64,000 nucleotides of DNA. It comes from an uncultured Clostridia bacterium (GTDB taxonomy: Bacteria; Bacillota; Clostridia; Oscillospirales; Oscillospiraceae). Position numbers and translations under genes: made by a program. Location of the stretch: NCBI GenBank assembly GCA_947170435.1, contig CAMVTO010000002.1:1-64000 (forward strand), written 5' to 3'. Positions 26,756 to 53,098 of this stretch are shown in pieces; the first letter of the stretch is position 1; each line of letters begins with the position of its first letter. The notes under the pieces were generated by a model that had not been told where the DNA came from, ran no database searches, and saw nothing but the letters and a program-made list of their open reading frames with translations.

Positions 26756-27592
26756 ATGACGATAACAACCGAACAACTGACCACCTATCGCGCCCACCTG
26801 CGCGCCGAGGAACGCGGCGCCGCGACCGTCGCGAAGTACCTGCACGACGCGACGGCGTTCGCCGCATGGCTGCATGGCGCGGAACTGACGAAAGAACGCG
26901 CCGCAGAGTGGAAGCATGAGCTGCTGCGACGCGGACAAGCCCCAGCCTCCGTCAACGCCGCGCTGGCGGCGCTCAACGGGCTGTTCCGCTTTCTCGGACG
27001 GGAGGACTGCCGCGTCAAGTTTTTGAAGGTGCAGCGGCGTGCGTTTCGGGACGAATCAAAAGAACTGACGCAGGGCGAATATAACGCGCTGGTCGAAACG
27101 GCGAGGGCAAGGGGCAAGACGCGGCTTGCGCTGCTCATTGAGACCATCGGCGGCACGGGCGTCCGCGTCAGCGAAGTCGCGTTTATCACGGTCGAGGCGG
27201 CGCAGCGCGGCCGCGCGGAAATCGCGCTCAAGGGCAAAATTCGGACGATACTCCTGCCCGCCAAGCTCCGCCGCAAGCTGCTCAAGTACGCCAAGGCGCA
27301 AGGCATCACAAGCGGCGCGATCTTCCGCACCGCCACCGGCAAGCCGCTCTCACGCCGCCAGATTTGGGGCGAGATGAAAGCCATCTGCAAAGCCGCGGGC
27401 GTCGAGCCGAGCAAGGTGTTCCCACACAACCTGCGACACCTGTTCGCGGTCGCGTTCTACAAGGTGAGCCGCGATCTCGTGAAGCTGGCGGACGTGCTGG
27501 GGCACAGCAGCATCGAAACCACCCGTATTTACCTGATGACGACAGAAAAAGAACACCAACGGCAGCTTGACCGGCTGCGGCTGGTGTCGTAG
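26756..27592 (+). CDS. Tyrosine recombinase (candidate promoter invertase, cassette 1)
   Basis: XerC/D-like: GGTGVRVSEV, HNLRHLFA, LGHSSIETTRIY; ends 5 bp before inverted repeat. Confidence 0.93.
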   Translation: MTITTEQLTTYRAHLRAEERGAATVAKYLHDATAFAAWLHGAELTKERAAEWKHELLRRGQAPASVNAALAALNGLFRFLGREDCRVKFLKVQRRAFRDESKELTQGEYNALVETARARGKTRLALLIETIGGTGVRVSEVAFITVEAAQRGRAEIALKGKIRTILLPAKLRRKLLKYAKAQGITSGAIFRTATGKPLSRRQIWGEMKAICKAAGVEPSKVFPHNLRHLFAVAFYKVSRDLVKLADVLGHSSIETTRIYLMTTEKEHQRQLDRLRLVS

Positions 27593-27597
27593 GAACG

Positions 27598-27853
27598 GAA
27601 TTCGTATTCCGATGATTGTTTCAGATGGTCACATAGAGACAATACTACCGATACATACTTTCTTATACCATATAATCCCGGTTGATGCAACATATTTTTT
27701 GAATTTGAGTACAAAAAACTGAGCCTCGCAGTTGGAATGCTGCTAAGGCTTGACTGAACACACCCTTTTGTTCCTGTCTCAGGAGCAAGAGGGCGCTTTT
27801 TTATGTTTTAAGGGGCTCCTCGGTGACCTGCGCTGTAATCGGAATACGAATTC
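27598..27853. promoter_or_regulatory. Candidate invertible promoter segment, cassette 1 (apparently OFF)
   Basis: gaattcgtattccgat 27598-27613 / atcggaatacgaattc 27838-27853 (16-bp IR); minus-strand promoter TTGCAT-17-TATAAG (27690-27662); plus-strand terminator ~27760-27806. Confidence 0.8.
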
Positions 27854-27875
27854 TGATTACAAGGGAGGCATGGCG

Positions 27876-28079
27876 ATGAACCTGCAATTCAAGCTTGCGA
27901 GCGCGGAGCGCATGGAGCGCTGCGTGCTGTGCGGCCGCATGACCGACGTGCCCGTCAGCCGTCCGGTGACGGAGCGGACGCATTACGTCGACGGCGCGGG
28001 AGAGCTCTGCCCCGCGTGCTTCGCGGAGGTCTACGGCGTGAGCGAGCTGCGGTGGATCACGGAGCCGGCGGCGCTATGA
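27876..28079 (+). CDS. Small zinc-ribbon-like protein
   Basis: CVLCGRM...CPACFAE Cys pairs; overlaps next gene. Confidence 0.6.
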   Translation: MNLQFKLASAERMERCVLCGRMTDVPVSRPVTERTHYVDGAGELCPACFAEVYGVSELRWITEPAAL

Positions 28080-28570
28080 GAACACCGCACAGCACCAAAC
28101 GCCTCGACCTCACCGGACAGCGCTTCGGCCTGCTGACGGTCGTCAGGCGCGTCGAGAGCATCGGCAATCGCACCGCGTGGCTGTGCCGCTGCGACTGCGG
28201 CAATGAGCGCGTGGTCAAGACCATCCACCTGCGCGAGGGCAAGGTGAAAAGCTGCGGCTGCGTGAAAGCCTTGCACAGTGAGAGCGCACTGGGCCTGCAC
28301 TACATCGACGGCACCTGCGTCGAGATGCTGCGGGCGAACACCAAGCGGAGCAACAACAAAAGCGGCGTGGTCGGCGTAATGTGGCGCGCAAGTTGCCACA
28401 AGTGGCAGGCAAGCATCATGTTCAAGGGCACGCGCCACAATCTCGGTGTGTACGACCTCTTTGACGACGCGGTCGCGGCGCGCCGGGAGGCAGAGGCGCT
28501 CTATTACGATTCGTTCCTCGCGGACTATGACGCACAGCAGGCCGCCGAAACGCAGGGAGCGCCGGCGTGA
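28076..28570 (+). CDS. AP2-domain-type DNA-binding protein with N-terminal zinc-ribbon module (cassette 1, copy 1)
   Basis: LDLTGQRFGLLTV...CRCDCGNE...KSCGC plus NNKSGVVGVMWRASCHKWQASIMFKGTRHNLGVYDLFDDAVAARREAE. Confidence 0.8.
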   Translation: MRTPHSTKRLDLTGQRFGLLTVVRRVESIGNRTAWLCRCDCGNERVVKTIHLREGKVKSCGCVKALHSESALGLHYIDGTCVEMLRANTKRSNNKSGVVGVMWRASCHKWQASIMFKGTRHNLGVYDLFDDAVAARREAEALYYDSFLADYDAQQAAETQGAPA

Positions 28571-29256
28571 TGAAACGGACATACACCACCAGGCGCCTCG
28601 ACCTGACCGGACAGCGATTCGGCAAGCTCACCGTCCTCTCCCGCGCCGAGAACATCGGGCGAGATACCGCGTGGCACTGCCGCTGCGACTGCGGAAACGA
28701 GCTCACCGTCCGCACCTGTTACCTCCGCAAGGGCGAGAAGCGCGACTGCGGCTGCGATACACCGGTTCCGCTGCTGGCGGGCACCCGCCAATACGACCTC
28801 ACAGGCCAACGCTTCGGAAAGCTGACGGCGCTAAAGCCCATAGGCGCGCCGGACGGCAAAAACTACCGCTGGCTGTGCCGTTGTGATTGCGGCAGTGAGG
28901 TGACGGCGCAAATCGGAAACCTGCGGAACGGCAAGACGACCAGCTGCGGCTGCGACCGGGTGCCGCTTGCCAAATATCTGCACTACGTCGACGGCACGAG
29001 CGTCGATCTGCTCCGCAGCCAGACGGTCCACTCCAACAACTCCAGCGGTGTGAGCGGTGTGTACTGGGTAAAACGGCAGCAGCGCTGGGCGGCTTCGATC
29101 GGCTTCAAGGGCGAGCGTTACCATCTCGGCTTGTTTGACCGCTTTGCCGACGCCGTCGCGGCGCGCAAGGAGGCGGAGCAGAAGTATTTCGGCGCGTTCC
29201 TTGCGGACTATGACGCCAAACAGGCTATGACCGAACCGGCGGGAGCCGGGTCGTGA
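28570..29256 (+). CDS. AP2-domain-type protein with duplicated N-terminal zinc-ribbon module (cassette 1, copy 2)
   Basis: Two copies of DLTGQRFGKLT...CRCDCG...CGC then SSGVSGVYWVKRQQRWAASIGFKGERYHLG. Confidence 0.8.
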   Translation: MKRTYTTRRLDLTGQRFGKLTVLSRAENIGRDTAWHCRCDCGNELTVRTCYLRKGEKRDCGCDTPVPLLAGTRQYDLTGQRFGKLTALKPIGAPDGKNYRWLCRCDCGSEVTAQIGNLRNGKTTSCGCDRVPLAKYLHYVDGTSVDLLRSQTVHSNNSSGVSGVYWVKRQQRWAASIGFKGERYHLGLFDRFADAVAARKEAEQKYFGAFLADYDAKQAMTEPAGAGS

Positions 29257-29274
29257 CCATAGAATTTGAATCGA

Positions 29275-29440
29275 AAGGATGTGATACTCAGGCAAAAGCG
29301 TGGCAGGATTGCGGGGCGCACCCGCTTGTCGCCGGGTTTGGTTGCGCAGACCGGCGACGGCGGGAGGATGCGCCGGAGTTTCATCGGGGGACTACGTAGA
29401 CTGATGATGCACGCCGTTCGCGCGCGAGATACTTTATTGT
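29275..29440 (+). ncRNA. Conserved structured leader element of unknown class (cassette 1)
   Basis: Near-identical block in cassette 2 with a compensatory change in hairpin gtcgccgg-gtttggttgcgcaga-ccggcgac. Confidence 0.55.
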
Positions 29441-29442
29441 AC

Positions 29443-29524
29443 AACCGCAAAACCGTTGGGAAACCCGGTGACGCAAAGTCGTGCGGCTAAGTCGCTGAAA
29501 GGCGATACGCTAGGCAGACCGCCA
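29443..29524 (+). promoter_or_regulatory. c-di-GMP-I (GEMM)-like aptamer 1 of 3, cassette 1
   Basis: gcaaaaccgttgGGAAAcccggtgACGCAAAGtcgtgcggCTAAG...TACGctaggcagaccgcc. Confidence 0.6.
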
Positions 29525-29539
29525 GATATGGCATCTTCA

Positions 29540-29669
29540 TTGGCAAGGATATCGAAAGATATCTCACGCAAAGCCGCGTGTTGGGAAACCGCACGCTTAG
29601 GAGGCTAAAGCCGATGCGAAGTCCAGATAATGGATGCGCGCGGAGGCCAAGTCCGTCCGGCTGCCGAGG
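29540..29669 (+). promoter_or_regulatory. c-di-GMP-I (GEMM)-like aptamer 2 of 3, cassette 1
   Basis: ggcaaggatatcGAAAgatatctcACGCAAAGCC...ggaggCTAAag...ccgtccggctgccgagg. Confidence 0.65.
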
Positions 29670-29685
29670 ATATAATATCTGCTTT

Positions 29686-29764
29686 GGCACGGCGGTGGGA
29701 AACCCCGCTTCGCAAAGCCAGAGGCTACGGCGCAGACGCGCTACGCCCGTTCGGCCGCCGGGGA
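29686..29764 (+). promoter_or_regulatory. c-di-GMP-I (GEMM)-like aptamer 3 of 3, cassette 1
   Basis: ggcacggcggtgGGAAAccccgcttCGCAAAGCCagaggCTACg...TACGcccgttcggccgccgggg. Confidence 0.6.
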
Positions 29765-29916
29765 TCTTTGCCTCCGCAAGAAGGAAAGGAAACCCGTTTG
29801 CATCCGCCGCCCGGAGACGCGGGCGTGATGCTTTGGCATGACGCCGCCGCCGGATGGGCGGTGCGGCGATCGGTTTTCTAAAACTGATTGAAATTGCAAA
29901 GAAAGGAAGTATCAAA

Positions 29917-32900
29917 ATGAAAACTTTGAAAAAGAGTCTCGCGATGCTGCTGGCGCTGGTCATGAGCCTTGGCTGCATGAGCGTCGGCGTGTGGGCAACG
30001 GACGACGATACGCTAGATAAAGAGACTGTTGAGGCTGACAGCAGTGGTTACACAAAACTTTCCGAAGGTCTCTATCAAGATAATGAAAGTTATAGCTCCG
30101 CCCAAAACTTCTATATCACCAGCAAAGACGGACTGTTTTACTTTCAGAAAATTGTTAATGGAGATAAAGAAACCACGGAAACTGTCTTTGGAAATGTTAT
30201 AAATGCCTACCAAGGTAACATTTTCACGGGAAAAACAGTTCATTTGCTTACGGATATTGACCTAGAAAATATTTCTTGGACCCCAATCGGGTATGTTCAC
30301 GGACAGAACGATGAAAGCACTTATAACGAGGACAAAATGCTGTTTTATGGCAACTTTGATGGTCATAACCATACGATCTCTAACATAACTGTAGCGACTA
30401 GTTCGAATAATAATAAGGGCGAGTATGGATTCTTTGGAAGAATTGGCGCGCCTGGTGGTAAAAATCAGACCTTTAAAGATCTGACTTTGAACAACGTTAC
30501 AGTGAGTGGCGAGTCGTACGTCGGCGCATTTGTCGGAAACGGCCAGAGCAACCCGGTAACCTTTGATAACTGCCGAGTGACAGGAAGCATCAATCTCAGC
30601 GGTAGTTATACTGGCGCAATCTACGGTATTGGCAACGGGAACGTCAAGAATTGCTCAGTCTCCGGTGATACTGACAGCGAAATCTACAGCGAAATCTTCG
30701 GTTATAACTATGCCGGTGGACTTGTCGGAGCAGAGCGCAACGGAGGTCAGGATCTCGCCATCACCGGCAATAAAGTCAGTGGCGTTAAGATCACTTCCTC
30801 CCAATATGCGGGCGGTCTGGTCGGTGCTATGTCGAGTGGTGCGGCAGGTACGCTGACGATTGGCGGCAACGACGTTGCTGGCGACGTCGTGGTTTCCGGC
30901 AAATATTCTGATAAGCTTATCGTCGAATTCGACGATGCCGGCAAAGCTACCCTGAGCGAAGGTTGGTACTCTACGGTTATCAAATATCCTGTCGCGCAGA
31001 TCGGCAACGAGTATTATACCACCCTCGCGGAGGCAATCGCGGCGGTTCCGACTGACGGTACCGAGACCACCATCACGATGGTGGGGGATATCGACGAGGA
31101 GTTGACCGAAGATGTCGGCAGTACAGGTGCATACTGGAAGATTGCTGCTGGGCAGAATATTGTTCTTGATCTGAACGGACATACGATCAAGCTCAAAGAA
31201 GGTGTCTGTCAGCCAGATCCCAAAACGGCAAAGAGCTATGCGATGTTCGAGAACAAAGGTACTTTTACTGTGGATGATACAAGCGCTGCTGGTACGGGAA
31301 GCATTCTGTTCAACCACCCGTATTACAAGATGTATAACTCGTCCTTCACGGCAATAAAGTACAACATTGCTCGAAACGATATCTCAAACCACGGAACGCT
31401 TGTTTTGAACAACGGCTTAATTAAGCAGGAAGCTTTTGAAGTTGAGGGTTATACAGATGGTGCGGGTACTGCAATGTATACCGTTGATAACTATGTCGGC
31501 TCTAGCTTTACGATGAACGGCGGGCATCTGTACAATTACTTCTCTAACGCGGTTCGTGTATTCGACAATGGTCCCGCTGCGGGCAGTATTACATTCAACG
31601 GCGGCTTAGTCGAAGGTTACAATTCTGTTTGGCTGCAATATACCAACAATACCACTCTTACGATCAATGGTGGTACGTTTAAAACCACCGCGAAAAACTA
31701 TCCCGATTCCAATACGCAATTATATAGTTCGTCTAAATCTTCTACAAGTCTGAACGTTGTGATCACGGGAGGCACATTCTACGAGAGTGTCAGTTTTTAT
31801 GCGAAAAACATTGATCTAAGTGTGACAGGCGGTACCTTCAAGGAGTGGCTTGAAGCCTATGATTACAGCGGCAACGGCTTTAAGCACGCGCAAGTTAGCG
31901 GCGGCAATTTCATGGATGTCTGCTTACAATACCAGCAGGGTGATTCTTGGTATTGGAAGGATTCGATAACTGGCGGTCTTTTCAGCACTGCGCCGGAATC
32001 GACCTACGAAACGAGCAGTGGAACCAGCACTCGTGATTATCCGAACTGCATCGCCCCCGACCACGCCGCGGTGCAAGTGACCGAGGGCGACTACGAAGGC
32101 TGGTATCTCGTCGGTCCGATTCAGTACGCTTCCCGCGAGATCATCACCGTCGATGAGGACACCTACCTCGTGAAGTCGTACGTGGAAGACGATGCCCAGA
32201 ACGAGCTTGAGGTTGCGAGCACCTCCGTCTCCGTGGCGTCCATCACCGAGGAGAGCATTGCGGCTGAGGAAGTCAAGACCACCGAGACCGTGTCCCTCGC
32301 CAACGTGAAGACCAAGAACGTTGCCGAGACCGCCGCAGCGATGGCTGTTGCCGCCGGTGCGACGGATGCTACGGACATCAACGTCACCATCAAGCTGGAA
32401 AAGCAGGATGACACTGAGGCGCAGAGCGATAACTTGGTGGAGACCTTCGGCGGCGCGCAGGAGGTCTTCGAGGTTCACCCCGTGGCGACCTACACGGCAA
32501 CCAAGACGGTTGGCGATGAGGTGCAGACGATCGCGACCGAGACGTTCACCATTGCCAACGATGACCTCGAGGGCAGCTTCACCTTCAACCTGTATCTGGA
32601 CAGCACGAAGTACAGCGGTCTTGAGGCTGGCAATCTCGTCACCGTCACCCACTATAAGGATGACAACACCACCGAAACTTGGAACAAGAAGGTGCAGCAG
32701 GACGAGGATGGGAACCTCTACGTCGAACTGACGCTCAGCAGCTTCTCCCACGTCGCGGTCAAGGCGAACAGTGATCCCACCGCGACCGTCGACTACACGG
32801 TCAAGATCGCGGACGCCACCTCCGGCACGGCGGTCATCTACCCGGGCGATTCCGTCACCATGAACGTCACCGTTTCCGGCGACGACTTCTACGGCGGCGA

Positions 32901-34125
32901 CTTCACCATCGAGTATGACAAGACCGCGTTCGATCTGGGCGAAGTCAGCCTGCCCGCAGGCATTGAGGTGCAGGCATCCGTCACGGATGTTGACACGACT
33001 GATGATACCAAGTATCAGCTCAACTACAACCTCGTCAACGGCGGTGCGCGTCTTGCCGACGGCTCCAAGATTCTCTCTCTCACCTTCACGGCGAAGAGCA
33101 ATCTGACCGAGACCAAGGAGTATGACTTCAAGGTTGTCAGCGCGAGCGTCAACTACAACAACGAGGAAAACGCGGATGATGCCGAGATCATCTCCAACGA
33201 CAAGGTCAAGGTCAACGCGACGCAGTACACCGTGAAGTTTGACGGCGAGTCCCACGATTGGGAGTATTCGGTCTATCAGGGCAAGGGCGTGGACACGATC
33301 CCGACCGACGTTAAGACCGGCTACACCTTCAAGGGCTGGGCGCTGACGGACACCGCGACCACCGCGCTGACGAACGAGGAAATCCGCAACGCTGCCGTGA
33401 CCGCGGACGTCATCTATTACCCCGTCTTTGAGGCGGAGCAGTATGATGTAACGCTGTCCGGCGCGACCGGCGACGCCAAGGCGACCTTCGGTCAGGACTA
33501 CACCGCGACCATCAGCGACTATGACGCGAACAACTATGACTACACCGTGACCTACAAGTCCGGCACCGACGCGAGCAAGACGCTTGAATTGACCGAGGAT
33601 AGCTTCGATGCGGAGACCGGAAAGTTCATCATCCCCGCGGCGGATATCACCGGAGCGCTGACCGTCACGGTCGAGAAGACCCTCAAGGGCTTCGAGGTCG
33701 AGCTGCACGCCGACTACGTCACCGGCTACACGCTGGTGCTGGTCAAGGCTGCCGAGGGCAACAACAGCAACCCGACCTACACCTATGACGACGGCGCGAT
33801 GTTCTTCGTGAATGAACTGAACAAGGCTGATAACTCGAAGGCTTACGGCGCATACGCCATCCTCGTCGAGGGCGCGATCACCGAGAGCGCGGCGCGTGCC
33901 AAGGTTGGCATCACCACCGCGACGGCCACTGAGCTGGACATCCAGACGGATGTCAACGCGACCGGTCTCATTGACTCCTCCGACCTGCAGGCGGCGTTCT
34001 CCGGCTACAAGGTTCAGCTGACGCTCCCGACGCAGATGGCGATCTATCTGCGCGCGGACGTCAACGGCGACTACAAGCTGGATACTGCCGACGTCGGTCT
34101 GGTCAACAACGCGAGAGCACAGTAA
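29917..34125 (+). CDS. Large secreted surface protein with beta-helix-like N-terminal region, cohesin-like domain, InlB-type repeat and C-terminal dockerin-like segment
   Basis: Signal peptide MKTLKKSLAMLLALVMSLGCMSVGVWA; TVKIADATSGTAVIYPGDSVTMNVTVSGDDFYGGDFTIEYD (cohesin-like); C-term DVNATGLIDSSDLQAA...LRADVNGDYKLDTADVGLV (dockerin-like pair). Confidence 0.85.
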   Translation: MKTLKKSLAMLLALVMSLGCMSVGVWATDDDTLDKETVEADSSGYTKLSEGLYQDNESYSSAQNFYITSKDGLFYFQKIVNGDKETTETVFGNVINAYQGNIFTGKTVHLLTDIDLENISWTPIGYVHGQNDESTYNEDKMLFYGNFDGHNHTISNITVATSSNNNKGEYGFFGRIGAPGGKNQTFKDLTLNNVTVSGESYVGAFVGNGQSNPVTFDNCRVTGSINLSGSYTGAIYGIGNGNVKNCSVSGDTDSEIYSEIFGYNYAGGLVGAERNGGQDLAITGNKVSGVKITSSQYAGGLVGAMSSGAAGTLTIGGNDVAGDVVVSGKYSDKLIVEFDDAGKATLSEGWYSTVIKYPVAQIGNEYYTTLAEAIAAVPTDGTETTITMVGDIDEELTEDVGSTGAYWKIAAGQNIVLDLNGHTIKLKEGVCQPDPKTAKSYAMFENKGTFTVDDTSAAGTGSILFNHPYYKMYNSSFTAIKYNIARNDISNHGTLVLNNGLIKQEAFEVEGYTDGAGTAMYTVDNYVGSSFTMNGGHLYNYFSNAVRVFDNGPAAGSITFNGGLVEGYNSVWLQYTNNTTLTINGGTFKTTAKNYPDSNTQLYSSSKSSTSLNVVITGGTFYESVSFYAKNIDLSVTGGTFKEWLEAYDYSGNGFKHAQVSGGNFMDVCLQYQQGDSWYWKDSITGGLFSTAPESTYETSSGTSTRDYPNCIAPDHAAVQVTEGDYEGWYLVGPIQYASREIITVDEDTYLVKSYVEDDAQNELEVASTSVSVASITEESIAAEEVKTTETVSLANVKTKNVAETAAAMAVAAGATDATDINVTIKLEKQDDTEAQSDNLVETFGGAQEVFEVHPVATYTATKTVGDEVQTIATETFTIANDDLEGSFTFNLYLDSTKYSGLEAGNLVTVTHYKDDNTTETWNKKVQQDEDGNLYVELTLSSFSHVAVKANSDPTATVDYTVKIADATSGTAVIYPGDSVTMNVTVSGDDFYGGDFTIEYDKTAFDLGEVSLPAGIEVQASVTDVDTTDDTKYQLNYNLVNGGARLADGSKILSLTFTAKSNLTETKEYDFKVVSASVNYNNEENADDAEIISNDKVKVNATQYTVKFDGESHDWEYSVYQGKGVDTIPTDVKTGYTFKGWALTDTATTALTNEEIRNAAVTADVIYYPVFEAEQYDVTLSGATGDAKATFGQDYTATISDYDANNYDYTVTYKSGTDASKTLELTEDSFDAETGKFIIPAADITGALTVTVEKTLKGFEVELHADYVTGYTLVLVKAAEGNNSNPTYTYDDGAMFFVNELNKADNSKAYGAYAILVEGAITESAARAKVGITTATATELDIQTDVNATGLIDSSDLQAAFSGYKVQLTLPTQMAIYLRADVNGDYKLDTADVGLVNNARAQ

Positions 34126-34165
34126 GCAAATTCCCTGAACCCAAGGCAAACGCATAAAACCTAAC

Positions 34166-34212
34166 AATCCGGCCCCGTCGTCCGCTTCGGGCGCCGGGGC
34201 CGGATTCTTTAT
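34166..34212 (+). terminator. GC-rich hairpin downstream of surface protein gene
   Basis: aatccggccccg...cggggccggattctttat. Confidence 0.6.
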
Positions 34213-34241
34213 GCAATCATATGAAGAAAGGGATAGATACC

Positions 34242-36542
34242 ATGAAAACAATTAAAAAATGTGTATCGCTTGCTCTGCCTCTGGCGCTGTTGGTCTCCCT
34301 GTGCGCGGGGTTTTCCGTGCCGGCGCTCGCCGCAAGCGACATCGCGCTGACCTATGACCTGAGCGCTGGAGGCGACCATGTCGTCTCCGTCGAAAACCCG
34401 GGCGACACCGTCGCTGTGACCTTTGCCATGCGGCGTACCGACGCCACCGAGAACTACTCGCTCTTCTCCATGCAGAACGAGATCGAGTACGACATGAGCT
34501 TCTTCGAGTTTGTCAGCGCCGCGGCGGTGCACAGCGCCAATTATAACGGCATCACGACACGGCCGACAATCCTGCATCAGACGCGCACCACCGGTCAGAG
34601 CATCGTCAAGACGACGATCATGACGGCGAACGACGTCTATCAGGCGGAGGAGACGTTCTGCACCGTGACGCTGCGTGTGCGGACAGACGCCGGATTGCAA
34701 ACAGGCGACAGCGGCTGGGTCCGCTCCAGCGAAGCCAAGGCAAACGAGCGTGACGTGGACGCCTGCGCCGTCACCGCGCAGGACCTGACCGTGTTCCTCG
34801 GCGCAATTCCCACAACGAGCTATCAGGTCAGCTTTGACGCCAACGGCGGCACATGGAGCACCGCCGCCGACGATCCGAGCGGAACCTATGCCGCCAACGC
34901 GTCCATCACCCTTCCCACGCCCGTGCGCGAGGGCTACGTCTTCGACGGCTGGTACGTCGGCACGACAGCGGTGGACGGCACGGCATATACGGTGACCGCG
35001 GACGCCACGCTGACCGCGCACTGGCGCGGCAGCTACACCGTTACGTATGTACTGGCCGGTGGAAACAATCTTTCCGGCGGCAACACCGTGGGCGCCAACG
35101 AGGGCGACATGATCACGCTGCCGAAGCCGGTTCGCGTCGGTTATGTGTTCAACGGTTGGTCTGACGGCACAGCGACATATGTCGCCGGTGCGAGCTATAC
35201 CGTGAAAGGCAATGCAACGCTGACCGCCACATGGACTGCATGCGCGCACCCCGAAGCGAGCCGTCAGGTGACCGGAAGCCGCACTGCTTATCTGCACAGC
35301 GGCCTATCCGTCCATGACGTGCAGGTGAGCACTGACTATCGCTGCGGCGACTGCGGCGCGGTGCTAGACAGCGTGACCGCGACGACCGCTTCCGGCGTGG
35401 CGTGTACAGGGACACACATAGGCGAAAACTGGCTCAGCAACGCCACCCAGCACTGGCATCACTGCGATGTGGAGAACGCCGATGTTGATATTGCCGACCA
35501 CGTTTACGACAACGACGCCGATACGACCTGCAACGTCTGCGGCTATACCCGCACGGTCGAAACCGGCGGCGGAACCGGAGGCGCAGGCGGCGGTGGCGGC
35601 GGCACAGGCGGAGGCGGTGGCGCCGGCGGCGGAAGCATCGTGAATCCCGGTGGAGGTACCACCACCATCGTGGATAACGAGGTCCCGTTGGCGGACGTGG
35701 ACAGCATCATCGTCACCAGCCTCGTCGATCCCACCACGGGCGCCAGCGTCAGCGGCGAGCGCGACGAGAACGGCCACGTGGTCGTCACCGTAAAGGACGC
35801 CGGCGGCAACGTGCTCGACACCGTCCCCGGCGGCGTGCGGGTCTCCTTCACCATCCGCGAGGGCGAGGTCGCGATCCTGCTGGACAAGGACGGCAACGAG
35901 ATCGATCTGCTGGAGAAGTCCATCGTCGAGGACCAGACCGCCTATGTGCTCGTGGACGGAAGCTGCACCATCGACATCAAGTACAACGCCAAGCCGTTCG
36001 ACGACGTGATGCCCTACGACTGGTTCAACAGCGCGGTCGTGTTCGCATCCAGCCACGAGCTGTTCCAAGGTGTCGCCGAGGGCGTGTTCGCGCCGAATAT
36101 GCCCATGACCCGCGGCATGCTGGTCACTGTGCTCTGGCGCCTGGAGAACAAGCCCGAGGACTTTGCGACGAATCAGTTCCCCGACGTGGCGGACGGCACA
36201 TGGTATACCGAAGCGGTGGGATGGGCGGCAAAGAACGGGCTTGTCAAGGGCTATGATAACGGAACATTTATGCCGGACCGCAACATCAGCCGTCAGGAGA
36301 TGGCGGCGATCCTGCACCGCTACATGAGCTATCTGGGCTACGATATGTCCGCACAGGACAACCTGTCGACCTTCGCAGATGGCGACAGCGTCGGCGCATG
36401 GGCTCTGCCGAGCGTGCAATGGGCTGTCGGCACCGGTATTATCACCGGCAAGGACGGCAGTCGCATCGACCCGCTCGGGAACGCTACCCGCGCGGAGGTT
36501 GCAACCATGTTTATGCGCATCGTGACCGAGATGGTCATGTAA
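34242..36542 (+). CDS. Secreted SLH-anchored surface protein with cohesin-like N-terminal domain and InlB-type repeats
   Basis: Signal peptide; DTVAVTFAMRRTD...SMQNEIEYDMSFFEFVSA...EETFCTVTLRVRTDA; Gly-rich linker; three C-terminal SLH repeats. Confidence 0.88.
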   Translation: MKTIKKCVSLALPLALLVSLCAGFSVPALAASDIALTYDLSAGGDHVVSVENPGDTVAVTFAMRRTDATENYSLFSMQNEIEYDMSFFEFVSAAAVHSANYNGITTRPTILHQTRTTGQSIVKTTIMTANDVYQAEETFCTVTLRVRTDAGLQTGDSGWVRSSEAKANERDVDACAVTAQDLTVFLGAIPTTSYQVSFDANGGTWSTAADDPSGTYAANASITLPTPVREGYVFDGWYVGTTAVDGTAYTVTADATLTAHWRGSYTVTYVLAGGNNLSGGNTVGANEGDMITLPKPVRVGYVFNGWSDGTATYVAGASYTVKGNATLTATWTACAHPEASRQVTGSRTAYLHSGLSVHDVQVSTDYRCGDCGAVLDSVTATTASGVACTGTHIGENWLSNATQHWHHCDVENADVDIADHVYDNDADTTCNVCGYTRTVETGGGTGGAGGGGGGTGGGGGAGGGSIVNPGGGTTTIVDNEVPLADVDSIIVTSLVDPTTGASVSGERDENGHVVVTVKDAGGNVLDTVPGGVRVSFTIREGEVAILLDKDGNEIDLLEKSIVEDQTAYVLVDGSCTIDIKYNAKPFDDVMPYDWFNSAVVFASSHELFQGVAEGVFAPNMPMTRGMLVTVLWRLENKPEDFATNQFPDVADGTWYTEAVGWAAKNGLVKGYDNGTFMPDRNISRQEMAAILHRYMSYLGYDMSAQDNLSTFADGDSVGAWALPSVQWAVGTGIITGKDGSRIDPLGNATRAEVATMFMRIVTEMVM

Positions 36543-40430: not shown

Positions 40431-40549
40431 GGGAAAACATAAGGGAAAACTTTTTGGGCGATTTTGAAAATCGAACTATTTTGGGTGATATTCTGGCAAC
40501 AAAAAGGAAAATCGCTTGAAACCATAATGATTTCAAGCGATTCCTCTGG

Positions 40550-45882: not shown

Positions 45883-45967
45883 GGGGGAATTCCCGAGTGG
45901 CCAAAGGGGGCAGACTGTAAATCTGTTGTCAGTGACTTCGGTGGTTCGAATCCACCTTCCCCCACCA
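45883..45967 (+). tRNA. tRNA-Tyr (anticodon GTA)
   Basis: GGGGGAATTCCCGAGTGGCC...CAGACTGTAAATCTG...GGTTCGAATCCACCTTCCCCCACCA. Confidence 0.97.
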
Positions 45968-46046
45968 AACTGGAATCATCCGAACATCGTGTCAATCGGC
46001 GCGGCGTTCGGATTTTCCGTTTCTCGAAGCAGTATTGCGCTATAAC

Positions 46047-46080
46047 AAAAACGGCACCCGTCTGGCAAGGACGGGTGCCG
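46047..46080. terminator. Intrinsic terminator
   Basis: aaaaacggcacccgtc-tggcaag-gacgggtgccgttttt. Confidence 0.8.
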
Positions 46081-46582
46081 TTTTTGCGTTTAAGCCTTGG
46101 ACTGCTGAGCCTTCCAAGACGCAAACTCCGTGCGCCGTGTGGTGGTTGGAGGGACAGGAGGAAGCTAAGTTGTTTTATGGCGCGCTTGCGGGCGGCAAAA
46201 AAGCAGACGCCGAAGATTCTTCAGCGTCTGCTTTTTATAGAGCAGTAATATAGAAAACAATCAAAACACGGACACACGGCCTAACTCGCATTAGGATGAC
46301 AACGAGAAAACACGACATATAGAGGCGCGTAACAGACCCCTATGCGATAAAAGTTGACGACAGTATTATCCAAAATACTGAAATAAGTTAACGATTGCAG
46401 TTCTTATTGTATGGGGATTAGGACACACCTAATCCCGTGCTTTTCACCGTCGGCAATATAATCGTTGCTCGTAGCTTATGGTTTCTCTACACCTACCATG
46501 CTACGCTAATTCCGGGCAACATTGGATAACCCCTTGACAATCCGCGTACAATAACGCCATTCTCAACCAAGGGAGGTATGGC

Positions 46583-47419
46583 ATGACGATAACAAAAGAA
46601 GACCTGACCGCGTATCGCGCCCACTTGCGGTCCGAAGAACGCAGCGCCGCGACCGTCGCGAAGTACCTGCACGATGTAGCCGCATTTGCGCTATGGCTGA
46701 ACGATACGCCGCTGACCAAGGAAGCTGCCGCGGACTGGAAGCAAGAGCTATTGCGCCGCGGACAAGCTCCTGCGACTGTCAACGCCGCTTTGGCGGCGCT
46801 CAACGGGCTGTTCCGGTTTCTCGGACGCGATGACTGTCGCGTGCGGTTCCTCAAGGTCCAGAGGCGCGCATTCCGGGACGAATCCAAAGAGCTGTCACAG
46901 GGCGAATACACCGCGCTCGTCAATACCGCAAGGGCGCAAGGCAAAGCACGCCTCGCGCTGCTCATCGAGACCATCGGCGGCACGGGCATCCGCGTCAGCG
47001 AGGTCGCGTATATCACGGTCGAGGCGGCACAGAGAGGGCGCGCGGAAATCGCACTCAAGGGCAAAATCCGCACGATTCTCCTGCCCGCGAAGCTCTGCCG
47101 AAAGCTGCTCAAGTACGCCAAGACGCAGGGTATCACAAGCGGCGCCATCTTCCGCACCGCAACCGGCAAGCCGCTCTCGCGGCGCCAGATTTGGGGCGAG
47201 ATGAAGGCCATCTGCAAGGCGGCGGGTGTGGAACCGAGCAAGGTATTCCCGCACAACCTGCGACACCTGTTCGCGGTGGCGTTTTATCGCGTGAGCCGTG
47301 ACATTGTGAAGCTCGCGGACGTACTGGGGCACAGCTCCATTGAAACGACGCGCATCTACCTCATGACGACAGAAAAAGAACACCAACGGCAGCTTGACCG
47401 GCTGCGATTGGTGTCGTAG
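46583..47419 (+). CDS. Tyrosine recombinase (candidate promoter invertase, cassette 2; ~90% identical by eye to 26756-27592)
   Basis: Gap-free 278-aa match to cassette 1 recombinase; HNLRHLFA, LGHSSIETTRIY. Confidence 0.93.
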   Translation: MTITKEDLTAYRAHLRSEERSAATVAKYLHDVAAFALWLNDTPLTKEAAADWKQELLRRGQAPATVNAALAALNGLFRFLGRDDCRVRFLKVQRRAFRDESKELSQGEYTALVNTARAQGKARLALLIETIGGTGIRVSEVAYITVEAAQRGRAEIALKGKIRTILLPAKLCRKLLKYAKTQGITSGAIFRTATGKPLSRRQIWGEMKAICKAAGVEPSKVFPHNLRHLFAVAFYRVSRDIVKLADVLGHSSIETTRIYLMTTEKEHQRQLDRLRLVS

Positions 47420-47420
47420 G

Positions 47421-47682
47421 ACGGAATACACATTCCGTTATATGCTCCAAGCGGAAAAATAGTGACATAGACACTATTACATAATCTTTATACCACATAA
47501 TCCCCAGCTATGCAATACTTTTTTATCAATATGAGCGCAAAAATCTAAGCCCCGCGGCTTAAAAAACCGCCAGGCTTACTTCAGTGCACCCTTTTGTTCC
47601 CATTCGCGGAACAAGAGGGTGCTTTTTTGTGTTTTGAGGGGGCTTTGGGTGCTTCGCCCTGTCAACGGAATGTGTATTCCGT
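47421..47682. promoter_or_regulatory. Candidate invertible promoter segment, cassette 2 (apparently OFF)
   Basis: Perfect 18-bp IR acggaatacacattccgt 47421-47438 / acggaatgtgtattccgt 47665-47682; minus-strand promoter TTGCAT-17-TATAAA (47515-47487); plus-strand terminator gcacccttttgttcc...ggaacaagagggtgctttttt 47586-47628. Confidence 0.85.
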
Positions 47683-47701
47683 GACAAGGAGATGCTGACC
47701 C

Positions 47702-48193
47702 ATGGCTCACACCACCGCCCGCCTTGACCTGACCGGACAGCGCTTCGGAAAGCTCACCGTCGTCGCGCCCGCCGAGAATATCGGACGGCGCACCGCTTGG
47801 CTGTGCCGGTGCGACTGCGGCGGCGAGCGCATCGTCAAGACCGTACACCTCCGCGAGGGCAAGGTCACGAGCTGCGGCTGTGCCAAAGAAAAGCACAGCG
47901 CAAGCGCACTGGGCCTGCACTATGTCGACGGCACCTGCGTCGAGATGCTGCGCGCGAACACCAAGCGCCGCAATAACAAGAGCGGCGTGGTCGGCGTGGT
48001 GTGGAGACCGGCGCGCCGCAGATGGCAGGCGAGCATCATGTTCAAGGGCACGCGCCACAACCTCGGCATGTACGCCCAATTCGACGACGCGGCAAAGGCG
48101 CGGCGGGAGGCCGAAGCGCTGTACTACGGCTCGTTTCTCGCGGACTTCGACGCGAAGCGGGCTATGACCGAACCGGCGGGAGCCGGGTCGTAA
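47702..48193 (+). CDS. AP2-domain-type zinc-ribbon protein (cassette 2)
   Basis: LDLTGQRFGKLTV...CRCDCGGE...SCGC; NNKSGVVGVVWRPARRRWQASIMFKGTRHNLGMY; tail MTEPAGAGS as in cassette 1 copy 2. Confidence 0.82.
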   Translation: MAHTTARLDLTGQRFGKLTVVAPAENIGRRTAWLCRCDCGGERIVKTVHLREGKVTSCGCAKEKHSASALGLHYVDGTCVEMLRANTKRRNNKSGVVGVVWRPARRRWQASIMFKGTRHNLGMYAQFDDAAKARREAEALYYGSFLADFDAKRAMTEPAGAGS

Positions 48194-48212
48194 CCATAGA
48201 ATTATAATAGGA

Positions 48213-48380
48213 AGGATGTGATACTCAGGCAAAAGCGTGGCAGTTCAGCGGGGCGCACCCGCTTGTCGTCGGGTTTGGTTGCGCAGACCGACGACGGCGG
48301 GAGAATGTGCCGGAGCTTCATCGGGGGGACTACGTAGACCGATAAGGTACGCCGTTCGCGCGCGAGACAACAAAATGTAC
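48213..48380 (+). ncRNA. Conserved structured leader element of unknown class (cassette 2)
   Basis: Homologous to 29275-29440; hairpin gtcgtcgg-gtttggttgcgcaga-ccgacgac 48265-48295. Confidence 0.55.
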
Positions 48381-48458
48381 ACCGCAAAACCGGGGAAATC
48401 CGGCGACGCAAAGGCAGGAGGCTAAGGGGCGCAAGCTCTATGCTCGTCCGCCCGCCAG
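48381..48458 (+). promoter_or_regulatory. c-di-GMP-I (GEMM)-like aptamer 1 of 3, cassette 2
   Basis: gcaaaaccggGGAAAtccggcgACGCAAAGgcaggaggCTAAGgggcgcaagctcTATGctcgtccgcccgcc. Confidence 0.65.
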
Positions 48459-48474
48459 ATATGGCGTCTTCACT

Positions 48475-48600
48475 CAGCAAAGCCGTCGAAAGGCGGCGAC
48501 GCAAAGCCGCGTGTTGGGAAACCGCACGCTTAGGAGGCTAAGACCTTATGCCTATTACTGTGCAAGGGAGGCAAAGGTTATGCTCGTCCGGCTGCCGAAG
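48475..48600 (+). promoter_or_regulatory. c-di-GMP-I (GEMM)-like aptamer 2 of 3, cassette 2
   Basis: agcaaagccgtcGAAAggcggcgACGCAAAGCC...CTAAG...TATGctcgtccggctgccgaag. Confidence 0.7.
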
Positions 48601-48615
48601 ATATGATATCTTCTT

Positions 48616-48815
48616 TAGCAAACCCGCTGAAAAGCGGCGACGCAAAGCCAGAGCCCCTGTCGGAACAAACCGTATCCCCGTCTTTATCCGAGCAGAACCC
48701 AACGAAGTGGTTCTGCGAGGAAGAGGAGGGGCAACGAAGCGATACGCAGTTTTCGCCGCAAGGCGGAAACGGAGCGAGCGCAGTTTGACCCGACGAGGCC
48801 GTTCGGCCGCCGGGG
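48616..48815 (+). promoter_or_regulatory. c-di-GMP-I (GEMM)-like aptamer 3 of 3, cassette 2, interrupted by a repeat insertion
   Basis: agcaaacccgctGAAAagcggcgACGCAAAGCCagagcccctgtcgg ... cgacgaggccgttcggccgccgggg. Confidence 0.5.
48738..48786 (+). repeat. Interspersed repeat, copy inside third aptamer of cassette 2
   Basis: 46/49 identical to reverse complement of 37619-37667. Confidence 0.75.
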
Positions 48816-48961
48816 ATCTTTGCCTCCGCAAGAAGGAAGGGGACCCGTTTTGCATCCGCCGCCCATCGGGCGTGATGCGTTTCGCATGACACCGCCGGGA
48901 GGCGGCGGCAAGCCGGAAAACCGGAAATTTTGAAATTGCAAAGAAAGGAAGTACAAACAAG

Positions 48962-51697
48962 ATGAAGAAACTGAAAAAATCATTATCTCTCCTCTTAGCG
49001 CTCGTCATGGTACTCAGCTGCATGAGCGTCGGCGTGTTCGCGGACGGCTCTTCTGTCACTTTCAACAATGTGGTCTATGATTCGCTGGAAGCAGCAGTAA
49101 ATGTTGCAAACGGTGAACAGATTACTTTGGGTGAAGGAACATACACGCTTAATATTGCACATAATAACCAAATTACAAAGACAATCAATATTAAGGGTGC
49201 CGGCAAAGACAAAACAGTTATCAATGCACCCACTGCAGAAAACTGTTATGGCGGATTTACAAATATCGTGCTTGAGGACTTAACCATCGCATGTGATAAC
49301 TATAATTATCACAACTGGGCATATGTTGCTAACGCGACGTATAAAAACTGCAAGATTACCGGCCTCTTTACCAACTATGCTCCCACGGTAAAGTTTGAAA
49401 TGTGCGAGTTTGTACAGACGACAGACGATCAGTATAGCATCTGGACATATGCAGGTACGAATGTGACCTTCGATACCTGCACTTTTACGGCAAGCAAGAA
49501 CAGCAAAAGTGTCCTCTGCTATACTGAACAGGATCTTGGCAGTGTTGCAAAGATACAGTTTACGAACTGCTCGTTTTCCTGTAACAAGGAAGTGGAGAAG
49601 TCCGCTGTGATGATCAACCCGACTGCGTATGATAATGTGAACACCTATGTGGTTTCCTTCACAAACTGCAACGCTACGGGCTATGGCACGAACCAGATTG
49701 AGGATGTTGACGGTCTTGTCGGATTGAAGAAAACAGTCAAGGACAACATCACCATCACCATTGACGACACACAGGTCTATCCCGAGGTTGCCGCTCCCGC
49801 GGTTGCCACGATCGGCACCACCGAGTACCCGACGCTGGCTGCGGCTGTCGCGGCTGTCAATGCTGGCGAGACAAAAACCATCAAACTGCTGTCTGATGCT
49901 TCGGGTGCTGGTATTTTTGTCGAGGCTAACGGCAACAGAAACATTACCGTTGATTTCAATGGATACACCTACACCTGCACTGGCCCGGCTGTTGGTTCTA
50001 CTGGTACGGAGTCCCAAGCGTGGCATCTTGAAGAGGGTAACACCATTACCTTGAAAAACGGTACTGTAACAACCAGCACTCTTGAAGACTATTATACGAG
50101 TGGAAACGTGCATGGTGTTTTGATGATTATCCAGAACTACTGTGACCTTACTCTGGACCATATGACGGTTGACGGACAGCACATGTATTATAATGGCACA
50201 TATGCTTTGTCCAACAACAACGGGACAGTAAAGATCAAGGACACAACCATTACTCGCAGCAGGTACGGTAATGGTCCAATCGCTTTTGACGTCTGCCGTT
50301 ACAGCAGCTATCCCTCCGTCAATGTTACAGTTGAAGGCAACAGCGTGATCAATGGTAATATCGAATTTGACGTGGGTTCAGCTAATCCGAAAGATGGTGC
50401 GCATCTGTTCATTACCAGCGGTACGATCAATGGCCAGATTAAGCCGACCGAAAAGGGTGCAACGGCGTTGGCGGCTGACAATAGTAAAGCCTCCATCTCC
50501 ATCACCGGCGGCACGTTCAGCAGCGATCCCAGCGCGTATGTCGCCGCAGGCTACCTTGCCGTTGAGACGGTGCCGAACACCACTTGGGTCGTAAAGCATG
50601 CCACAACGACGTCCAGCACACCGGAGTCAACGGATAAGGGCAGCAGTGTTGTGGTCAATACCGCCACCGCAACCGAAGCAGCGGCTACTGCAACAGAGTA
50701 TTCCGTCACGGTTACGGCTAACCAGCAGGACCCCACCACCATCAGTCTGATTGACTCTGCTGAGGCCAGCGTGAGCAATATTGCCACAAGCTCCCTTGCG
50801 AGCGTTGTCAAGTCTCTGGTTGAACAGGTTGAGAGTCAGAATACGACGCTTTCAAATGATGGCTACTTCCAGATTGAGCTGAAGAAGAACGACAATGCTG
50901 ACATTGCTAGTGATAGCACGGCGACTGATGAAGTAATAACAGCCATTGGCGCCGCCGACGTTGTGTTTGACGTCTATCCTGAACTGGTTGCCTACGATGC
51001 CGATGACAACGTTGTCGCTTCCGCGAAGGTTAACAATGACCAGCTTGCGAGTGGCGCGTCATTTACGTTCTCGCTTGATCTCGGCGTCGAGTACGCCAGC
51101 AAAATCGTCACGCTGACGCACTATCACTATGACGAGACGTCTGGGACGTGGACGACGACCGTTCTCGGCGACTTCGCGACGGACAGTACCGGCAAGGTTT
51201 CCGGCATCACAATGAGCGAGTTCAGCTATATCGCGGCGAATGCCGGCGCATCGGTGGATTCTACCGAGTATGGCTATATTGATGAAGCGCAGATGAACCT
51301 GTACTCCTATCTGGACTTCCATGTAAAAATCCAGCTGACCCAGGCGGGCGTTGCTGCGGTTGGTAATGGCCTCTTGCTCTCCGTGATTTATGACAGCGAC
51401 CCTGATCAGAACGAAACCTACACGCTGAGTGATCTGACCGGAACAGATGGATTGTATGATATCGCGGTTCAGGTTCGGCCGAGACATTTGTATAAGGATG
51501 TTGCGTTCCAACTCATGAGCGCGGATCGTAATACAGTGTATCAGATGTGGAGTCCTGAAAGCGGAGAGGGGACAACCGCCTCTATTTCCCCCGACTATTA
51601 TCTGGATACAGTCCAGGGGTACGATGCTGTCATTTCGGCCTTGCATAGTTATGCTGATGCGGCGATTGATGTGTGGGGAGATGGCGTAACATATTGA
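48962..51697 (+). CDS. Large secreted surface protein with beta-helix-like repeats (cassette 2 cargo)
   Basis: Signal peptide MKKLKKSLSLLLALVMVLSCMSVGVFA, nearly the same as cassette 1 cargo; different mature region. Confidence 0.8.
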   Translation: MKKLKKSLSLLLALVMVLSCMSVGVFADGSSVTFNNVVYDSLEAAVNVANGEQITLGEGTYTLNIAHNNQITKTINIKGAGKDKTVINAPTAENCYGGFTNIVLEDLTIACDNYNYHNWAYVANATYKNCKITGLFTNYAPTVKFEMCEFVQTTDDQYSIWTYAGTNVTFDTCTFTASKNSKSVLCYTEQDLGSVAKIQFTNCSFSCNKEVEKSAVMINPTAYDNVNTYVVSFTNCNATGYGTNQIEDVDGLVGLKKTVKDNITITIDDTQVYPEVAAPAVATIGTTEYPTLAAAVAAVNAGETKTIKLLSDASGAGIFVEANGNRNITVDFNGYTYTCTGPAVGSTGTESQAWHLEEGNTITLKNGTVTTSTLEDYYTSGNVHGVLMIIQNYCDLTLDHMTVDGQHMYYNGTYALSNNNGTVKIKDTTITRSRYGNGPIAFDVCRYSSYPSVNVTVEGNSVINGNIEFDVGSANPKDGAHLFITSGTINGQIKPTEKGATALAADNSKASISITGGTFSSDPSAYVAAGYLAVETVPNTTWVVKHATTTSSTPESTDKGSSVVVNTATATEAAATATEYSVTVTANQQDPTTISLIDSAEASVSNIATSSLASVVKSLVEQVESQNTTLSNDGYFQIELKKNDNADIASDSTATDEVITAIGAADVVFDVYPELVAYDADDNVVASAKVNNDQLASGASFTFSLDLGVEYASKIVTLTHYHYDETSGTWTTTVLGDFATDSTGKVSGITMSEFSYIAANAGASVDSTEYGYIDEAQMNLYSYLDFHVKIQLTQAGVAAVGNGLLLSVIYDSDPDQNETYTLSDLTGTDGLYDIAVQVRPRHLYKDVAFQLMSADRNTVYQMWSPESGEGTTASISPDYYLDTVQGYDAVISALHSYADAAIDVWGDGVTY

Positions 51698-51732
51698 TTT
51701 GCCCCTTTCGCTCAAAAAGAGGAGGAGATATA

Positions 51733-51858
51733 ATGAAAAAAAACTATGAAGATCCTAAGTTGGCAGTGGTGCAGTTTTCTGACGTGATTGTTACAAGCGA
51801 TTTGGACATCCAGCCGGAAGGTGACAGCCAACTTCCCTCTACTAAGTTTACACGCTGA
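51733..51858 (+). CDS. 41-aa peptide of unknown function
   Basis: RBS ggaggagata then MKKNYEDPKLAVVQFSDVIVTSDLDIQPEGDSQLPSTKFTR. Confidence 0.65.
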   Translation: MKKNYEDPKLAVVQFSDVIVTSDLDIQPEGDSQLPSTKFTR

Positions 51859-51891
51859 GATTAATGACGTGAAGGAGGAGCGGGCATTACC

Positions 51892-52707
51892 GTGTCCGCT
51901 CCTCAATTTATGAGGATGATAAACAATATGCGGAATGTTTTTCGATGCTGTCTTATGTTGATGGCATGCTTTGCGTTATTATTACCTGTTCGGGCAGATG
52001 ACAGTTCACTACCAACTGTGAGTTTTAAGCGGGAGGAATCGACAAGTCAGGAACAGTCTTTGCCTGTAGAAGTTCCCTCCCCTATCCCCGCGCCCTCTGG
52101 CGGCTCCGGCTTCGCGTCCCCCATCGTGAACAGCAAGGCCATCGAGATCCTGCTGGCCGACGGCACGTCCATCGTCCTGCCGTTCCTCGACGTGCCGCAG
52201 GACGCCTATTACACTGCGGCTGTCGCGTGGGCGTACAGCCATGACCCGCAGATCACCGGCGGCGTCAGCGCCGAGCGCTTTGACCCGCTGGGGACCTGCA
52301 CCCGCGGTCAGATGGTGACCTTCCTCTGGCGCGCGGCGGGCTGCCCCGAGCCGACCGGAACGGCGTCCGCGTTCTCTGACGTAGCGGCGGGGAGCTGGTA
52401 CGAAAAGGCGGTCGCGTGGGCGGTTGCGAACGGCATCACCGACGGCGTAGGCGGAGGCAGATTCGACCCGAACGGCATTGTGAACCGCGCGCAGGCGGTC
52501 ACGTTCCTGTACCGCGCCAAGGGCAAGCCCGCGGCAACGGCTGCGGAGAGCTTCACCGACGTTGGAAGCGGCGCGTACTACGCCGACGCGGTGGCGTGGG
52601 CGGTTGCGAACGGCGTCACGGACGGCGTGGGCAACAACAGCTTCGCGCCGAACGCGAACTGCGTCCGCGGCCAGACGGTCACGTTCCTGTACCGCGCGTA
52701 CAAGTAA
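51892..52707 (+). CDS. Secreted protein with three SLH domains
   Basis: Signal peptide and three SLH repeats (e.g. FSDVAAGSWYEKAVAWAVANGITDGVGGGRFDPNGIVNRAQAVTFLYR). Confidence 0.9.
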   Translation: MSAPQFMRMINNMRNVFRCCLMLMACFALLLPVRADDSSLPTVSFKREESTSQEQSLPVEVPSPIPAPSGGSGFASPIVNSKAIEILLADGTSIVLPFLDVPQDAYYTAAVAWAYSHDPQITGGVSAERFDPLGTCTRGQMVTFLWRAAGCPEPTGTASAFSDVAAGSWYEKAVAWAVANGITDGVGGGRFDPNGIVNRAQAVTFLYRAKGKPAATAAESFTDVGSGAYYADAVAWAVANGVTDGVGNNSFAPNANCVRGQTVTFLYRAYK

Positions 52708-52770
52708 GGCGTACATGGCGGGGAGCTTCGGCTCCTCGCCTGTTTTTTGCGTTGTTTGAGAGGCGTACTA

Positions 52771-52890
52771 CTTCGGCGGCAGCACGAAATAACCCGCTAC
52801 GCAGACGGAGACGATACGAAGCGTATCGCAGAGGATTTGAATGCGAGAGGCGTTACAACGAATTACGGCGGAAAGTTCCGCTCCACCAAG
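52771..52890 (+). pseudogene. Fragment of a large serine recombinase
   Basis: EITRYADGDDTKRIAEDLNARGVTTNYGGKFRST resembles the internal recombinase domain; no catalytic domain present. Confidence 0.6.
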
Positions 52891-52928
52891 AAAAGAGACA
52901 CGCTTTTGCGTGTCTCTTTTCTTGGTGG
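52883..52928. repeat. Perfect 21-bp inverted repeat with 4-nt loop, followed by a second hairpin
   Basis: ccaccaagaaaagagacacgc-tttt-gcgtgtctcttttcttggtgg; then gccgccgct-ttc-agcggcggg. Confidence 0.85.
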
Positions 52929-53098
52929 GGGCCGCCGCTTTCAGCGGCGGGGTTGATCAAATCCATCGAGAGGGGGACTACCATCCCATCTCGAGCTTGC
53001 CCAGATAGGCTTTCGCCACAGCGAAAGCGAATCCACCTTGACATTCCCCGCAACCGTGATAGAATACTCACACTATTTTCCAATAAAGGAGCGCAGTT

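Follow-up and report, generated by a model that had tools for sequence, protein, structure and literature searches.

In Clostridioides difficile, invertible elements and c-di-GMP riboswitches are combined at cmrRST and flgB (PMC8844915). At the cmr switch (Cdi6, with a c-di-GMP-II riboswitch) and the flagellar switch (Cdi4) a phase gate and a signal gate act on one operon; the invertible element comes after the riboswitch, and the products of the operons are regulators or flagella (PMC8844915). CwpV (Cdi1) of the same species is a large phase-variable cell-wall protein; its N-terminal part is conserved, and it varies antigenically from strain to strain. The abstracts of the two reports present a single locus, with alternative types of repeat and a switch that works through a terminator, and report no riboswitch and no multi-copy cassette per genome (PMC3080850, PMC2784873). 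Recombinase-linked invertons are common in gut Clostridia, and the orientation of inverton group 139, paired with invertase group 35, shifts with surface attachment in Intestinimonas butyriciproducens; riboswitches are not mentioned in that paper (0 occurrences) (PMC11892184). Three c-di-GMP-I aptamers in one leader are known from Bacillus thuringiensis Bc3-5, where every aptamer is a complete unit that has a terminator platform of its own (PMC4759541).

The locus described here, cassette 2, occupies positions 46583-52707 of a 64,000-nucleotide stretch of DNA from an uncultured Clostridia bacterium, the whole of which is called the window; the source genome is a 2.8 Mb draft of 81 contigs, 88% complete. 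Like Cdi6 and Cdi4, cassette 2 would place a phase gate and a signal gate on one operon. Unlike them, the present cassettes carry tandem class I aptamers downstream of the switch with an AP2 gene between, keep a recombinase gene beside the switch, and occur in repeated copies with different surface proteins. The likeness to CwpV lies in a large, putatively phase-variable and variant surface protein behind a conserved N-terminal part, and that to group 139, likewise from Clostridia, in a tyrosine recombinase no more than 5 kb from an inverton, a likeness that may or may not extend to group identity. Bc3-5 is matched in the number of aptamers in one leader, but no terminator platform was detected in cassette 2, whose aptamers 2 and 3 are divergent. 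No report of the same composite (switch, AP2, c-di-GMP-I, surface protein) was found in the open-access literature; new are the placing of the switch ahead of tandem aptamers, the presence of an AP2 gene, the repeated use of the unit for different surface proteins, and heads that are mosaics. In the reading that we consider probable, a phase-variable promoter and a c-di-GMP leader control surface proteins that diversify, and inter-cassette recombination keeps the heads alike. The features of cassette 2 and its left edge are the following.

45883..45967, plus strand: tRNA-Tyr(GTA), left edge of the cassette 2 insertion (synteny with G003 is broken from 45969 to 53069)
46583..47419, plus strand: Xer-like tyrosine recombinase, 278 aa, proposed invertase of the adjacent switch (PF00589 2.7e-24, PF02899)
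47421..47439, plus strand: left inverted repeat ACGGAATACACATTCCGTT, arms CGGAAT/ATTCCG, 4-nt asymmetric core ACAC
47440..47663, no strand: candidate invertible segment, in the proposed OFF orientation here
47487..47515, minus strand: promoter-like TTGCAT-17-TATAAA, facing the recombinase in this orientation
47586..47622, plus strand: terminator-like hairpin, 15 bp stem, T6 tail (fold -26.7 kcal/mol for 47580-47640)
47664..47682, minus strand: right inverted repeat AACGGAATGTGTATTCCGT
47702..48193, plus strand: AP2-domain protein with Zn-ribbon-like N-terminus, first gene of the proposed ON transcript (PF00847 E 0.0047, PHROG 374 3.5e-33)
48194..48372, plus strand: conserved 5' leader upstream of the aptamers (by alignment; 71-87% identity among six leaders)
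48373..48459, plus strand: c-di-GMP-I riboswitch aptamer 1 (RF01051 62.3 bits)
48466..48599, plus strand: c-di-GMP-I aptamer 2, with enlarged second arm (RF01051 36.9 bits)
48607..48664, plus strand: c-di-GMP-I-like aptamer 3, first arm alone recognisable (RF01051 29.0 bits, sub-threshold)
48798..48961, plus strand: 3' leader ('platform') with RBS AAAGAAAGGAAG
48962..49042, plus strand: shared signal peptide, the last conserved stretch of the head
49043..51697, plus strand: mature variable surface protein (cargo 2)
51733..51858, plus strand: 41-aa peptide MKKNYEDPKLAVVQFSDVIVTSD..., member of the tail-peptide family, with RBS AGGAGGAG upstream
51892..52707, plus strand: SLH-domain protein, 271 aa, conserved tail (PF00395 3.2e-29)

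A first-pass annotation of this DNA had proposed that the head of another cassette in the window, cassette 1, is repeated in cassette 2, and this was borne out: recombinase, ~245-bp invertible segment, AP2, tandem c-di-GMP-I aptamers and signal peptide all recur at the positions above. The gene order of cassette 1 is that of cassette 2, except that it has two AP2 genes.

26756..36542, plus strand: cassette 1
26756-27592: recombinase
27598-27613 and 27838-27853: inverted repeats, core TCGT
28077-28570 and 28567-29256: two AP2 genes
29436-29526 and 29676-29762: c-di-GMP-I aptamers
29917-34125: cargo
34221-36542: SLH protein

Further copies were located by searches of the source genome and its relatives. 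These added a third full head (C44) and a leader (C49) in the same genome and four loci in a sister species, so that the lineage, far from holding only the two copies of the window, has at least four loci in the source genome and another four in the sister species, with a complete copy outside the genus. C44 (cassette 3) comprises a recombinase (92%), AP2, an aptamer, a 1728-aa exported protein, the peptide and the SLH protein. C49 comprises leader, exported protein, peptide and SLH protein, and recombinase and AP2 are absent upstream; an apparent tRNA 3' end, GGTTCGAGTCCGGCAGTCTCCACCA, precedes its leader (L022 about 1290), which suggests that this copy is also at a tRNA site. In the sister species G003 (MAG RGIG6629, from sheep rumen), G003C18 is a full copy, G003C46 has recombinase, switch and AP2 with no aptamer detected, and G003C35a is a leader without recombinase. 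The fourth locus, G003C35b (L091, reverse strand, around 14.0-15.0 kb), is decayed to a recombinase remnant, an intact inverted repeat and switch, one aptamer and a truncated SLH gene; its signal peptide is fused straight to a DVITTSG-like tail followed by the SLH remnant, and it is, judged by this layout, a copy that lost its cargo. Beyond these, G428 (genus g114) has the full order (recombinase 63%, 23-bp inverted repeat, AP2 60%, c-di-GMP-I 45.7 bits) with a surface protein of 1654 aa that has an SLH-like end, G237 has recombinase, 18-bp inverted repeat and AP2, and G126 and G047 have AP2, c-di-GMP-I and surface protein with no close recombinase. The description of the heads as copies of one module therefore stands as to their conservation and needs amending on two points: they are mosaics with signs of ongoing exchange, and some copies are without head parts (recombinase or aptamers are missing from C49, G003C35a, G003C46, G126 and G047). 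The source genome also contains three more recombinases, 46-47% identical, at C13 (L023), C48 (L024) and C28 (L025), with genes for large exported proteins (up to 2670 aa) behind every one of them and 16-19 bp inverted repeats after the recombinase at C13 and C48; these form a second switch class without aptamers.

The R..HxxR..H..Y residues are visible in the cassette 2 recombinase, which is 90% identical in amino acid sequence to that of cassette 1; the recombinases of five heads (cassettes 1, 2, C44, G003C18 and G003C46) are 88-94% identical, with intact frames. The inverted repeats of cassette 2 are 19 bp long and about 243-244 bp apart, and the first begins 2 bp past the recombinase stop. 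A scan of the window (300 bp, steps of 50) gave no further inverted repeat that was >=14 bp long with a spacing of 150-300 bp, and in 5000 shuffles of the segment the longest inverted repeat was <=11 bp. Most of the relatives examined also have inverted repeats directly past the recombinase stop, with ~240 bp between them, and the two copies within each switch are perfect in most heads. This similar layout in more distant relatives points to a real switch. The sites of the cassettes resemble CGGAAT-NNNN-ATTCCG. Cassette 1 has TCGT as its 4-nt core, cassette 2 and C44 have ACAC and G003C35b has CCAT, and the core is identical between both sites of one switch; by analogy with other tyrosine recombinases, shared cores would favour inversion inside a cassette and allow cross-talk between cassettes 2 and 3.

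Segment orientations were compared between homologous loci of two species. The cassette 2 segment aligned to the reference in the forward direction (score 444), and the homologous G003C18 segment is reversed (157 reverse vs 22 forward): cassettes 1, 2, C44 and G003C46 have the orientation called OFF, and G003C18 the reversed orientation called ON. Opposite orientation in the sister species indicates a working inversion switch. The promoter-like element moves with the segment, with the same hexamers on the minus strand in cassette 1, C44, G003C46 and G003C35b and on the plus strand, facing the operon, in G003C18; its form across cassettes 1, 2, C44 and G003C46 is TTGCAT-17/18-TATAAA/G, and the cassette 2 match has 8 of 12 consensus bases, under the scan threshold of 9/12. 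A terminator-like plus-strand hairpin is found in the segments of cassettes 1, 2 and C44.

The AP2 protein of cassette 2 is 77% identical to the first AP2 protein of cassette 1, and copies 58-63% identical occur in four other genera. Its PF00847 match (E 0.0047) is below the Pfam cut-off. The protein is related to accessory parts of phage HNH homing endonucleases, which are the parts covered by the PHROG matches, and Pfam gave the weak AP2 match alone, with no HNH nuclease domain. The head was considered as a plain phage module; in viral contigs no close relative of the recombinase was found and the AP2 relatives are distant ones, and the head is thus not simply a phage module. The AP2 protein may bind DNA. 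The place of AP2 directly behind the switch is taken in other genera by a gene for a DUF4379 multi-zinc-finger protein, in four cases, or for an HU-like protein, in one (L067, L068, L070, L075, L074), and with such proteins in this slot a feedback of AP2 on inversion is a guess.

The gathering score of RF01051 (35 bits) is reached by two of the three cassette 2 aptamers, and RF01051 is above gathering in all four leaders of the source genome and in G003, G126, G047 and G428. The Rfam consensus is not fully matched by aptamers 2 and 3, and the second arm of aptamer 3 is broken by a structured insert of ~130 bp. Within this insert (48666-48797) a 78-bp stretch (88%) is shared with an inverted copy at 37606-37683, and only these two copies were found in the genome. 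The 5' leader of cassette 2 matched no Rfam family, and no clear expression platform and no terminator platform was found in the leader. GGDEF proteins are encoded in the source genome, and the leader presumably senses c-di-GMP. In C44 (L021 about 3850-4105) and G003C18 (L063) a reading frame spans the 5' leader through aptamer 1; it is frame-shifted in cassettes 1 and 2 and may be coding or due to chance.

The heads are mosaics. Between cassette 2 and C44 the recombinase is ~85% identical, followed by exactly 741 identical bp (47360-48100; recombinase end, whole switch and most of AP2), then divergence, and again by 154 exact bp at the leader end (48800-48953). The 741-bp identity could be an assembly artefact, given the draft state of the genome (81 contigs). 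The nearest relative of cassette 2 is cassette 1 in the 5' leader (87%), C44 in aptamer 1 (91%), G003C18 in aptamer 2 (90%; cassette 1 vs C44 there 95%) and C44 at the leader 3' end (99%). In G003 the leader 3' ends of C18 and C35a are 98% identical to each other and 93-94% identical to those of the other species, i.e., leader ends are more alike within genomes (99%, 98%) than between them (93-94%). By this pattern the sister genome shows concerted evolution of heads, a result independent of the 741-bp identity. Max-chi2 mosaic tests gave p<=0.0075 in all nine trios and 0.0005 in at least six of the nine leader and switch trios (2000 permutations, floor 0.0005), values that are approximate because alignment columns were treated as independent. 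Recombination among cassettes that keeps heads alike in patches is the best reading of these alignments.

In the DNA alignment, similarity stops at the signal-peptide cleavage site (aligned signal peptides MKTLKKSLAMLLALVMSLGCMSVGVWA and MKKLKKSLSLLLALVMVLSCMSVGVFA). The cassette 2 exported protein is 911 aa long and SLH domains are absent from it. As the first-pass annotation had claimed, the mature surface proteins of cassettes 2 and 1 differ: one patch of 27% over ~200 aa aligns and the rest does not, and instead of homology along their length the cargos have only short patches of 25-37% identity. Residues ~603-820 of cargo 2 are similar to parts of the cassette 1 and C44 cargos. Against the C44 cargo, cargo 2 aligns at 35% over ~120 aa, and no alignable patch was found against the C49 cargo. 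A search of 59 relatives gave no hit to cargo 2 at E<=1e-8, and no Pfam, NCBIfam or PHROG family was found for it. Structure prediction of the full cargo gave no usable fold (mean pLDDT 40). Residues 28-280 modelled alone gave pTM 0.62 and pLDDT 52, with weak PDB matches, mostly to beta-helix proteins (best E 0.025); the N-terminal part is probably, at low confidence, a beta-helix, and with such matches and pLDDT this stays a suggestion.

The 41-aa peptide and SLH protein had been taken as part of the swapped cargo. Other cassettes have both in the equivalent position, so these are a conserved tail and not specific cargo. The peptide, with no Pfam, NCBIfam or PHROG match, belongs to a small family of the form MKKxYxxPxLxxxxFxDVIxTSG between surface protein and SLH gene (window 51733-51858, L021:9749, L022:6906, L063, L090:8836). 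The cassette 2 SLH protein has three SLH stretches and is 61-85% identical in amino acid sequence to those of C44, C49, G003C18 and G003C46; across cassettes the SLH tails are 52-85% identical, the exception being cassette 1, which has a 773-aa SLH protein instead. In C44 and G003C18 the SLH gene and the Phd-like gene downstream are 88.6% identical in DNA with different cargo; as their upstream flanks differ, these loci are possibly, but not certainly, true orthologues. Signal peptides and SLH domains suggest that the exported protein and the SLH protein act at the cell surface. The interpretation as antigen diversification behind a common control module thus holds for diversified surface proteins behind a shared module; 'antigen' is unproven, as a repertoire of surface-protein variants read from sequence could also comprise adhesins, biofilm factors or phage receptors.

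The window is collinear with G003 except at 4912-40531 (cassette 1, ending at tRNA-Ser) and 45969-53069 (cassette 2), and both cassettes sit in tRNA-flanked insertions missing from G003. The cassette 2 insertion starts 2 bp past tRNA-Tyr; a right-hand tRNA-Tyr att repeat was searched for at its right edge and not found. Beside that edge, at about 52800-52950, is a remnant like the C-terminal part of a serine recombinase. The 24-bp 3' end of tRNA-Ser is repeated exactly at 8892-8915, 25985-26008 and 40546-40569, and with two mismatches at 4966-4989 (none expected by chance), which divides the 35.6-kb insertion absent from G003. Integrases at 24695-25864 and 39195-40430 end just before two of these sites, and repeats and adjacent integrases together place cassette 1 on an apparent integrated element in a stack. 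A relaxase-like gene (22894-24246) also lies inside this insertion.

In the preferred reading, the tyrosine recombinase would flip the ~245-bp segment between the 19-bp inverted repeats, as its anatomy and the opposite orientation in the relative suggest. In the OFF state seen here, the segment's promoter would face the recombinase and the terminator the operon, where it would block recombinase read-through. After inversion (ON), the promoter would drive one transcript of AP2, leader, surface protein, peptide and SLH protein, and c-di-GMP, with an effect of either sign, would tune expression among ON cells via the leader; a stochastic gate and a signal gate would act in series. Each of several head copies would drive a different surface protein; what lies between signal peptide and tail, the secreted protein, would diverge fast or be exchanged. 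That the conserved heads and tails (DVIxTSG peptide, SLH) are recombination handles for replacing the secreted middle while keeping control, with an ON-only AP2 feeding back on inversion, is an extension of which we are distinctly doubtful.

Other explanations share parts of this evidence. The cassettes could be plain paralogs of an old duplication whose secreted proteins evolved faster than their regulators, with no cargo exchange or special mechanism. Fast evolution is common among surface proteins, and the 25-37% patches between cargos (e.g. C49 vs G003C18, 30% over 915 aa) mean that some domains are homologous. Paralogy nevertheless seems unlikely to us, since similarity drops sharply at the signal-peptide end with DNA just upstream 84-99% similar, the nearest relative of the mosaic heads changes by segment, and C44 and G003C18 share SLH and Phd-like genes at 88.6% DNA identity with different cargo. 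Somewhat more credible, though still less likely than not, is that mobile elements carry head and surface protein as one unit and that the repertoire grows by whole-cassette gain: cassette 1 has an integrase of its own (39195-40430) and is bounded by exact 24-bp tRNA-Ser repeats (25985-26008 and 40546-40569), cassette 2 starts beside tRNA-Tyr, and both regions are absent from the sister species. Such gain alone does not explain the mosaic leaders and the 741-bp identity, and no right-hand att repeat was found for cassette 2; it may well act together with the preferred explanation.

We regard it as highly improbable that the switch is a relic and the recombinase an unrelated integrase, leaving the leader as the sole working control. 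The leaders of C49 and G003C35a do occur without recombinase behind fixed promoter-like sequence, and G003C35b has lost most of its recombinase, but five recombinase frames are intact at 88-94%, the inverted repeats are perfect in most heads, and the orientation varies between copies.

What sets these loci apart is that both controls, a recombinase and a DNA-binding protein are joined in one compact unit recurring within a genome and across genera. The signature of recombinase, inverted repeats, AP2 and c-di-GMP-I offers a simple way to find such loci in uncultured Oscillospirales. The cassettes are a natural series on how a bacterium keeps one regulatory program while its coat changes; by this means a gut bacterium could change its coat under unchanged controls.
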